In this document: one piece after another, positions 23,266-61,517 of the stretch
Layout: the number at the start of each line of letters is the position of its first letter
Numbering within the stretch: the stretch's first letter is position 1
DNA from: Pseudomonadota bacterium
Lineage (GTDB): Bacteria > Pseudomonadota > Gammaproteobacteria > Xanthomonadales > Xanthomonadaceae
DNA length: 64,000 bases
Direction of reading: 5' to 3'
Assembly: GCA_018242445.1 (NCBI GenBank)
Contig: JAFEBW010000053.1
Location: forward strand, 62,001-126,000
Made by a program: the position numbers and the translations under genes
The notes under the pieces: model-generated
What the model was told of the DNA's origin: nothing
The model's input: the letters and a program-made list of their open reading frames with translations, nothing else
Database searches by the model: none

Positions 23266-23382
23266 GGACAGAGGACAGAGGACTGAAAGGCATTGCTTCG
23301 TCTTTTCTGCCCGCTACCCTCTTGCCCTCTGTACGAGCTTTGCCACTTCTTTTCTGTCCTCAGTCCTCTGTCCTCAGTCCTC
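23257..23382. repeat. inverted pair of heptanucleotide arrays after hemW
   Basis: Four heptads GAGGACT/GAGGACA (23257-23284) are mirrored by four of TGTCCTC/AGTCCTC (23355-23382). Pairing the two arms gives a 28-bp stem with two mismatches, closing a loop of 70 bases. The hemW stop codon lies in the left arm. The right arm ends 8 bases before the cobalamin riboswitch. Confidence 0.9.
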
Positions 23383-23390
23383 TGTGATGT

Positions 23391-23600
23391 AAACTTGCCC
23401 CGCCCCGAGTGCTCGGGAAGCCGGTGAGAGTCCGGCGCTGCCCCCGCAACGGTAAGCCAGACAAACCCTCCATCACGCCACTGCGCAAGCGGGAAGGCGG
23501 AGGGCGGATGCCGCACCGCGAACATCGCGTGCCGCATCGCTGGCAAGCCCGGAGACCGGCTCGAGGCATCACCGGCGCGTCGCGGAGGGCGATGTGAGCG
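23391..23600 (+). promoter_or_regulatory. cobalamin riboswitch
   Basis: The conserved core is plain: GGGAAGCCGGTGAGAGTCCG, then GCTGCCCCCGCAACGGTAAG, and further down AAGCCCGGAGACCGGC ahead of the GGCATCACC region. This is the class I AdoCbl-type arrangement. It ends about 85 bases before the btuB start, leaving room for an expression platform. Binding of adenosylcobalamin normally turns the downstream transporter off. Exact 5' and 3' limits are estimated. Confidence 0.95.
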
Positions 23601-58069: not shown

Positions 58070-60868
58070 TCAAGGCCCGCAGGCTTGCAGCGCCGCCGCC
58101 GCTTCGCGCTGCACCGAATCGACCGGGAGCGTCGCGGCCATTTCCGTCAGCACGCCCTGCAACGCCTGCCGTCCTGACACCGCCTGCGACGGCTGCGCGC
58201 ACTGCATCTGCGCGGCGAGGATGCGTGTTTGCCAGAGCAGCCGCCGATGCTCGGCATCGACGGGCTTGAAGCGGCTGCGGATGTCCGCGAGCAACCGTTG
58301 CGCGTCGGCCGGGCGCTGCTGCGCCACGCGCAGGCGCGCGATCGCCAATTCCGCCACGCCCGTCGCGGTGTGCGCGGCACCGTAGTCGGCAAGCAGGATC
58401 GCCTGCGCACGCGACAGCAGCGGTTCGGCGCCCGCGAGGTCGCCGCGCGCCAGCCGGATCGACCCGAGCTGGCGCAGGCTCCTGCCGACCAGCCCGTTGC
58501 GTTGCCCGAACTGCTTTTCGCGCAACGCCAGGGCTTGCCGCGCCAACGGCTCGGCCTCGTCGTCGCGGCCGGCATCGTGCAACACCATGGCGAGGTTGAA
58601 GATGCCGCCTTGCAGACGCGGCGAGGCATTCCATAAGGCGATCGCGCGCCGCATGTGCGACTGCGCCGTCGCGATGTCGCCGCGCTCCCACGCGATCACG
58701 CCCAGCGAGTTCTCGATCGAGCCCAGATCCGGGTGATCGGGCCCGAGCAGACGCACGAGCTGGATCCGCGCTTGCCGGAACAGCGCCTGCGCCTGATCGA
58801 GCTTGCCCTGATCGACATAGATCGCGGCCAGCCCGCGCTCGGCATCGATGGTGGACGGGTGGCCTTCTCCAAACAAGGCCGCGGCCAACCGATGCGATTC
58901 CTGGAACGCATTCTCGGCGGCCGCTTCGTCGCCCATCTCGCGATACAGCATGCCGAGGTTCAACCAGATCGAAACCGCCAGCGGGCCCCGGTCGTTGTGC
59001 GCCGCGTGCAGCCGGTCCAGCGCCCCCCGCATCCCGCCGAGCGCGACCTGCAGACGCCCGGCATCGGCATCCAGGGTGGCCAGATCGAACAGGCTTTCGG
59101 CCGGTTCGGCCCCGGTATCGACGTGCGCTTCGCGCAACGCCAGGGCCTCCTGGAAATGCTTGCGCGCCGCATCGCGATCCTGCAGGGCGCGCTCGCAGCG
59201 GCCGAACACGGATTCGAAATCGGCGGCGTCGCGCTTGGCGGCGTCGCCGCGCACGTCCAATTCGTTCTCGTGGGCCAGCAGCAGGTCGCGGCATTGCGTC
59301 GGCTTGCCGAGCAGGCGCAAGGCGTCGCCGCGCAGTTGCAGGGATTCGATCTGCACCGCTGCCGGCGCACGCCGCAGTGCGCCGTCTTGCAGGTTCAGCG
59401 CGGCGATCGCGCCGCGATAATCGCCCAGGCGCAGGCGGATGCGCGCGATCAACGCCAGCAGTTCGATCCGGGTGGTCGGCTGCCCGGCGAACTCGGACTG
59501 CATGCGGCGCACACCGGCATCGAGCAGGTTGCCGATGTCCACCGTGCGGTCGGGCCCCGCTTCCTGCTGCGCCTGCTCGAACAGGCCGATCACGAAATCG
59601 TGCATCGCCTGCGCGCGTTGCGTTTCGGCGCGCGCCTGCAACTGCTGTTGCCACATCACGTACAAGCCCGAACCGAGCACCGCGATCAGGGCCAGCATGG
59701 CCACCAGCGACACCGCGTGGCGGCGCACGTACTTGCCGAACCGGTATCCGAATCCCTTCGCATGCGCCTCGATCGGCAGGCCGGCGAGATGGCGCTTGAT
59801 GTCCGATGCCAGCGCTTCGACCGAACGGTAGCGGTCGTCCGGGTGCTTTTGCAGCGACTTGAGGACGATGGTGTCGAGGTCGCCCGCGAGCACGCGCGCG
59901 AGCCGGCGCTCCGAACGGGTGACCAGATCGGCGCGCTCGTGCGCGACCACCGAGGGCTTGGCGGGCTCCGCGCCGACGATGGCCTCCTCCCACGCCGCGT
60001 CGGTGTCGCGATCCACCCGGTACGGCCGGCACCCGGCCAGCAGTTCGTACAGGATCACGCCCAGCGAGTACACGTCGGTGGCGGTGGTGATCGTGTCGCC
60101 GCGTATCTGTTCGGGCGCCGCGTAGTACAAGGTGAAGGCGCGCGCGCCGGTTTGCGTGCCGTCGCTGGACGTGTCGCGGCCGGGCGCATCGAGCAGCTTG
60201 GCGATGCCGAAATCCAGCAACCGCACCTCCCCGGCGGGGGTGACGAGGATGTTGGACGGCTTGAGATCGCGGTGCACCACCAGCCCGGCATGCGCATGGC
60301 TGACCGCGCTGCACACCTGCAGGAACAATTGCAGCTTCTGCACCACGGTGAGCTTGTGCGAACCCGCGTAGCTGGTGATCGACTGGCCCTCGATGTATTC
60401 CAGCGCGATGTAGGGCTGGCCATCGGCGGCGATGCCGGCGTCGAACATGCGCGCCACGTGCTCGTGGCCGAGGCTGGCGAGGATCTGCCGCTCGCGGTCG
60501 AAGCGCGCGCGCAGGCCCGCGCCGGCCAAGCCCGGATGCAGCAATTTCAGCGCGACGCGGCGCTCGAACAGGCCGTCGGCGCGCTCGGCCAGCCACACCT
60601 GGCCCATCCCGCCCTCGCCGATCATCCATTGCAGGCGGTAAGGCCCGACCCGCGCTCCGGGCACGGGCGCGTGCAGCGATGCCTGCGGCACCGGGGTGTC
60701 GAGCCATCGCGAGTCGGTGGTTTCGAAGGCCAGCAATCGGCGCAGCTCGCTGGCGAGCGCTGCGTCTTCGTGGTCGATGGCGTCGAGCCGCCGTTGCCGC
60801 AGGTCGGGCGGCAAGTCGAGCAACTCGTCCAGCAGGGGGCCGACCCGCGCCCACAGTTCCGGCTGCAC
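58070..60868 (-). CDS. Ser/Thr protein kinase with C-terminal TPR repeats
   Basis: This predicts 932 residues from a GTG at 60868. The N-terminal 60 residues resemble the tail of anti-sigma or sensor regions. The kinase domain follows (about 75-365) with GEGGMGQVW, VALKLL, HRDLKPSN (near 198), DFGIAK and YAAPEQ. One transmembrane helix lies at about 390-412 (LVAMLALIAVLGSGLYVMW). The remaining 500 residues are helical TPR repeats, probably periplasmic. The ECF sigma gene ends 10 bases upstream on the same strand. In Xanthomonas and Vibrio, kinases of this architecture phosphorylate and activate their linked ECF43 sigma factor. Confidence 0.92.
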   Translation of the reverse strand: MQPELWARVGPLLDELLDLPPDLRQRRLDAIDHEDAALASELRRLLAFETTDSRWLDTPVPQASLHAPVPGARVGPYRLQWMIGEGGMGQVWLAERADGLFERRVALKLLHPGLAGAGLRARFDRERQILASLGHEHVARMFDAGIAADGQPYIALEYIEGQSITSYAGSHKLTVVQKLQLFLQVCSAVSHAHAGLVVHRDLKPSNILVTPAGEVRLLDFGIAKLLDAPGRDTSSDGTQTGARAFTLYYAAPEQIRGDTITTATDVYSLGVILYELLAGCRPYRVDRDTDAAWEEAIVGAEPAKPSVVAHERADLVTRSERRLARVLAGDLDTIVLKSLQKHPDDRYRSVEALASDIKRHLAGLPIEAHAKGFGYRFGKYVRRHAVSLVAMLALIAVLGSGLYVMWQQQLQARAETQRAQAMHDFVIGLFEQAQQEAGPDRTVDIGNLLDAGVRRMQSEFAGQPTTRIELLALIARIRLRLGDYRGAIAALNLQDGALRRAPAAVQIESLQLRGDALRLLGKPTQCRDLLLAHENELDVRGDAAKRDAADFESVFGRCERALQDRDAARKHFQEALALREAHVDTGAEPAESLFDLATLDADAGRLQVALGGMRGALDRLHAAHNDRGPLAVSIWLNLGMLYREMGDEAAAENAFQESHRLAAALFGEGHPSTIDAERGLAAIYVDQGKLDQAQALFRQARIQLVRLLGPDHPDLGSIENSLGVIAWERGDIATAQSHMRRAIALWNASPRLQGGIFNLAMVLHDAGRDDEAEPLARQALALREKQFGQRNGLVGRSLRQLGSIRLARGDLAGAEPLLSRAQAILLADYGAAHTATGVAELAIARLRVAQQRPADAQRLLADIRSRFKPVDAEHRRLLWQTRILAAQMQCAQPSQAVSGRQALQGVLTEMAATLPVDSVQREAAAALQACGP

Positions 60869-60878
60869 GGCCTGCGCC

Positions 60879-61445
60879 CTAGCCCGGCTGCAATTCGGCC
60901 AGCAGGAACAACCGCGCCTTCTGCCAGTCGCGGCGCACGGTGCGTTCCGAGCAGCCCAGCAATTCGCCGATCTGCACTTCCGACAGGCCTGCGAAATACC
61001 GCATCTCCACCACCTGCGCCAGCCGCCGGTCGGCGGCCGCGAGTTTTTCCAGCGCGCGATCCAGATGCAGCATTTCCTCGCCCAGTTCGATGCCCGCGGT
61101 GATGTCTTCGGGCAGGTCGGTCACCCGGTGCTGGTCGCCGCCGCGCTTCTGGCTCAAGCGCTGGCGGGCGTAGTCCACCACCACCGAGCGCATCGCGGTG
61201 GCGGCATAGGCGAAAAAGTGCGCGCGGTCGGCGAATTGCGCGTTCTGGTTGCGGATCAGCTTGAAGTAGGACTCGTGCACCAGCGCGGTGGTGTCCAGCG
61301 TGCCGTTGCGCTGGCCATGCAGCTGCCTGCGCGCCATCGCGTGCAACTCGCGGTACAGCGATGCCAGCACCTGATCCAGCGCAGCCCGGTCGCCGGCGCG
61401 GGCCGATGCGAGCAAGGCGGCGATGTCGGTTTCTTCAACCATCAT
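60879..61445 (-). CDS. ECF43-type sigma factor, probably phosphorylation-activated
   Basis: This predicts 188 residues of the TIGR02999/ECF43 type. Region 2.2 reads NGTLDTTALVHESYFKLIR. Canonical ECFs have an acidic DAED-type stretch there; this one has D-T-T-A, so two Thr take the place of acidic residues. Region 4 has FAGLSEVQIGELLGCSERTV and RRDWQKARLFLL. The kinase gene starts 10 bases after its TAG stop. Known pairs (EcfP/PknT of Vibrio parahaemolyticus, EcfK/PknS of Xanthomonas citri) need kinase phosphorylation of a Thr in this region for RNA polymerase binding. That this pair works likewise is inference. Confidence 0.9.
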   Translation of the reverse strand: MMVEETDIAALLASARAGDRAALDQVLASLYRELHAMARRQLHGQRNGTLDTTALVHESYFKLIRNQNAQFADRAHFFAYAATAMRSVVVDYARQRLSQKRGGDQHRVTDLPEDITAGIELGEEMLHLDRALEKLAAADRRLAQVVEMRYFAGLSEVQIGELLGCSERTVRRDWQKARLFLLAELQPG

Positions 61446-61517
61446 CGTGTTTTCTCCCCGAAGCCGCGATCATACCGCCCCGGCGCGCGGTCTACCCGTA
61501 TCGGGCAACCGGATCGA

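Follow-up and report, generated by a model that had tools for sequence, protein, structure and literature searches.

A gene pair encoding an ECF43-type sigma factor and a transmembrane Ser/Thr kinase lies in the window, the whole 64,000-nucleotide stretch of contig JAFEBW010000053.1 (assembly GCA_018242445.1) that was analysed. The best explanation for its features, and one that we regard as probable, is that the kinase directly phosphorylates Thr53 of the sigma factor encoded beside it. Direct phosphorylation by a kinase is a recently found sigma switch, with two well-studied pairs: EcfP/PknT of Vibrio parahaemolyticus (ECF43; PMC8999054, PMC8103513) and EcfK/PknS of Xanthomonas citri (ECF43; PMC13147305). 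An ECF43 sigma factor of Hyphomonas neptunium is reported to behave like these pairs. The mechanism has already been described, and the window pair is an ordinary member of this recently described type of switch.

The sigma gene (P0001; 60879..61445, minus strand) has an ATG start and encodes 188 amino acids. The protein matches NCBIfam TIGR02999 over its full length at 193.7 bits (cut-off 126.15), and matches PF07638 (Sigma70_ECF), also over its full length, at about 155 bits (155.2, above the curated cut-off). Both models are broader than the kinase-regulated groups, and the classification as ECF43-type rests on these matches together with the region 2.2 motif and the adjoining kinase gene. 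One ECF43 sigma factor is recognisable in the genome. Its two other recognisable ECF sigma factors have acids in region 2.2 (DIDD and ECQD), which favours the Thr53 model.

The kinase gene (P0002; 58070..60868, minus strand) begins with GTG 10 bases downstream of the sigma gene and encodes 932 amino acids. The product is a Hanks-type kinase matching PF00069 at 135.5 bits, with additional TPR_12 and TPR_10 matches. Its catalytic domain (residues 73-365; 59774..60652, minus strand) carries HRDLKPSN and DFG motifs that are invariant across 43 aligned orthologues. The closest PDB sequence is X. citri PknS (9eed, 1e-51), itself the kinase that phosphorylates EcfK, and an intact kinase with this similarity argues for the Thr53 model. 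A single transmembrane helix at about residues 386-406 (59651..59713, minus strand; hydropathy peak 2.31), flanked on the kinase side by the basic segment KYVRRH, places the kinase, by prediction, in the cytoplasm and the C-terminal half in the periplasm. AlphaFold models this half (residues 407-932; 58073..59650, minus strand) as TPR repeats that are helical throughout, and from residue 500 onwards most pLDDT values exceed 90. Cys526, Cys558, Cys890 and Cys930 are kept in 42-43 of the 43 orthologues and would fit periplasmic disulfides. Mean column conservation is 0.80 in the catalytic domain versus 0.50-0.66 in the outer half, a difference that would be expected if the outer half is a sensor. 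The first-pass annotation had described an ECF43-type sigma factor beside a Ser/Thr kinase-TPR gene, with intact catalytic motifs and a long helical periplasmic TPR half; both reading frames were recovered exactly where it had placed them, and the remainder of that description agrees with the results above, the topology being a prediction. Three further Hanks kinase matches lie on the same contig just outside the window (C48:60708, 128369, 131009). The 2.9 Mb genome has 12 Hanks kinase matches in all, so adjacency does not prove which kinase is the partner.

Evidence for the site of phosphorylation comes from region 2.2, where residues 50-58 read LDTTALVHE. The motif D51-T52-T53-A54 (61284..61295, minus strand) takes the place of DAED, the acidic stretch of most ECF sigma factors. 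Among 95 distinct orthologues, position 51 is Asp in 94, position 53 is Thr in all 95 and position 54 is Ala in 93. Position 52 is Ala in 79 and Thr in only 14, so T52 was ruled out as the switch residue. That T53 is invariant while its neighbour drifts to Ala supports T53 as the phosphorylated residue. In a pairwise MAFFT alignment, T53 (codon at 61287..61289, minus strand) is matched with T51 of X. citri EcfK, which was identified experimentally as a site phosphorylated by PknS (PMC13147305). The EcfK sequence used here comes from a Xanthomonas genome; the PknS encoded there shares 99% identity with the solved X. citri fragment of that kinase. For EcfP, the comparison was with the published motif, STTA, whose second Thr is phosphorylated by the neighbouring kinase (PMC8999054). 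The two motifs share xTTA, and the predicted site, T53, corresponds to that second Thr. An alignment of this kind had been proposed as a check on the initial annotation; run against EcfK, it places T53 on the phosphosite of that protein.

The same annotation held that Thr replaces the acidic patch of region 2.2. This is true only in part. Relative to DAED, the orthologue consensus DATA (DTTA in the window protein) keeps the Asp and the Ala, has Thr at the Glu position and has lost the last Asp. Of the two Thr residues, only T53 is a candidate switch, and since D51, the first DAED acid, is retained, replacement of the patch is incomplete. The STTA motif of EcfP has no acid, in contrast to the window motif. 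Among 98 other members of the family, an acid is found at the first motif position in 13 and at the fourth in 25, indicating that retention of D51 is variation within the family rather than an anomaly. A phosphate on T53 would restore a D-x-acid pattern.

Most genera of the family carry the pair as a constant feature. All 40 genomes examined, which represent 30 genera, have the sigma and kinase genes side by side, with mutM adjoining in 39, and the pair is fixed between mutM and rep across these 30 sampled Lysobacteraceae genera. Given this constant order and the invariance of T53, neither the motif nor the gene pair is due to chance. Of 80 named loci (from Lysobacter, Luteimonas, Arenimonas, Pseudoxanthomonas, Thermomonas and unclassified metagenome-assembled genomes), the kinase is present in 78 and mutM in 76 within the examined stretch; the two that lack the kinase run near a contig end. 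The clade is widespread in the five named genera, usually beside mutM, and a tree of sigma sequences places the window protein in this mutM-linked clade with support of 100/98. Conversely, neither a sigma gene nor a kinase gene was found within roughly 1.5 kb on each side of mutM at 23 mutM loci in 22 genomes, which were chosen because a first scan had found no close sigma orthologue in them. For two of these genera, relatives do carry an orthologue (L307 and L340, both inside the clade), so some of the absences beside mutM may reflect relocation rather than loss. The joint presence of the two genes at most loci and their joint absence at others support the model in which the kinase acts on T53.

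The identified neighbours of the pair are mutM and then a divergent fatty acid desaturase gene upstream, and a rep-type helicase gene and plsB downstream. No anti-sigma factor was found among these identified neighbours; one gene further away has no Pfam match. A recurrent gene between the kinase and rep was considered as a target, but in the example scanned it encodes a thymidine kinase and was not persuasive. Upstream of the sigma gene is a −10-like box, TATGAT (61469..61474, minus strand), which belongs to a GSGCTATA[GT]TC consensus found in 39 of 41 upstream regions. In the same 41 regions, no conserved −35 element was seen, and no column elsewhere is comparably conserved. The box looks more like part of a housekeeping promoter than of an autoregulated ECF promoter, and ECF autoregulation at this promoter was rejected. 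A conserved −10 box with no evident ECF −35 element suggests that control is more likely to be post-translational. Elsewhere in the window, a cobalamin riboswitch was detected at 23344-23578 (82.6 bits).

By analogy with EcfP and EcfK, the proposed mechanism would begin with an inactive sigma factor, whose region 2.2 lacks most of the DAED acids that contact the β′ subunit of RNA polymerase. The kinase would sense an envelope or extracellular signal via its periplasmic TPR half, autophosphorylate, and then phosphorylate T53. The phosphate would replace the Glu of DAED, such that D51-x-pT53 resembles D-x-E, and the phosphorylated sigma factor would bind RNA polymerase and transcribe its regulon. 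The first-pass annotation had likewise proposed that phosphorylation of a Thr supplies the missing charge and switches the sigma factor on. The match between T53 and EcfK T51 is consistent with this proposal, while the retention of D51 complicates it: some charge is already present, and the off state may be leaky.

A further complication is that a second residue could be involved. PknS also phosphorylates EcfK at linker residue T106, and EcfK fails when T51 and T106 are both lost, whereas a T51A mutant is still functional (PMC13147305); if the window protein behaves similarly, this would count against T53 as the sole switch. Counting without gaps from the shared KR..G motif, a reading of the sequence by eye, places T109 of the window protein (61119..61121, minus strand), which is followed by D110, opposite EcfK T106. 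T109 may therefore contribute as a second site. It is also conceivable, if rather unlikely, that T109 is the main switch, or that either of T53 and T109 suffices, as seems to be the case for the two EcfK sites, while D51 already contributes some of the charge in region 2.2. The matching linker spacing, the EcfK mutants and the presence of D51 in nearly all orthologues are in line with this reading. However, MAFFT introduces gaps into the linker, such that the match to T106 is not secure. Moreover, Ala replaces Thr at position 109 in 14 of 95 orthologues (the other 81 have Thr), while T53 is invariant, and position 110 is acidic in 94 of 95 in any case. A two-site version is compatible with the favoured model, in which the adjacent kinase acts on T53, and the alternatives overlap with that model in part.

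Evidence against the T53 model also comes from more distant relatives. The corresponding residue is Thr in 91 of 98 TIGR02999 relatives and is thus a family-wide feature; Thr alone is therefore weak evidence for kinase control. If the residue served kinase control alone, its loss might be expected in relatives that have no kinase nearby. A kinase gene is found on the same strand within 2.5 kb downstream for 70 of the 91 relatives with Thr (21 lack one) versus 4 of the 7 without it. In this sample, the presence of Thr is not associated with an adjacent kinase (Fisher p = 0.36), although with only seven relatives lacking Thr the test is weak, and most of the 98 are paralogues from few genomes, with few Thr losses; the outcome weighs neither for the model nor against it. 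Co-occurrence across these relatives was consequently rejected as independent proof. Genomes G022 and G633 (L269-L286 and L289-L306) have about 22 TIGR02999 paralogues each, many beside their own kinase. Four relatives (L335, L354, L367 and L368) are encoded beside a kinase and lack Thr at the region 2.2 position, their motifs being SAPE, DTSA, DSRA and QPAA, respectively; they may use another site, or the Ser in the case of DTSA. The family-wide occurrence of Thr raises the alternative that the sigma factor is constitutively active, with T53 kept for structural reasons common to TIGR02999 and the kinase acting mainly elsewhere. D51 and D110 would then provide some charge. We consider this improbable given the EcfP and EcfK precedents, the association of the pair across 30 genera, and the joint absence of both genes beside mutM in sampled genomes.

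The similarity to EcfK/PknS includes the sigma-kinase gene pair, a Thr at the equivalent place in region 2.2, another at a matching linker spacing, and a kinase with an N-terminal helical segment, one transmembrane helix and periplasmic TPRs. The sigma factors also differ: EcfK has QATE in place of DTTA, is only 35% identical to the window protein in a pairwise alignment, and falls in a separate, supported branch of the sigma tree. The EcfK/PknS genes lie in a type VI secretion cluster; the window pair does not. An earlier remark that the window has no type VI secretion gene extends to the whole genome, where a search for the sheath protein VipB gave no match; nor was VipB found in three congeners. 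Across the family, VipB turns up in just 28 of 119 genomes, and the sigma orthologue is carried both by genomes with a type VI secretion system and by genomes without one. Despite the common family, the shared gene order and the closeness of PknS, it is hardly credible that the window pair is the local EcfK/PknS controlling type VI secretion, and this orthology was rejected on the strength of the sigma tree and the VipB search. Since neither the genome nor these congeners show any sign of the secretion system, the regulon would differ from that of EcfK/PknS.

The signal may differ from that of EcfP, which responds to polymyxin (PMC8999054, PMC8103513). We suggest, tentatively, that the Lysobacteraceae-wide ECF43 clade with D51 is a graded switch, not an all-or-none one, that forms, together with its kinase, a conserved envelope-sensing pathway whose regulon is distinct from type VI secretion. 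The clade occurs in culturable soil bacteria, and it is therefore a convenient one in which to study the signals perceived by TPR kinases and the number of charges that region 2.2 requires.
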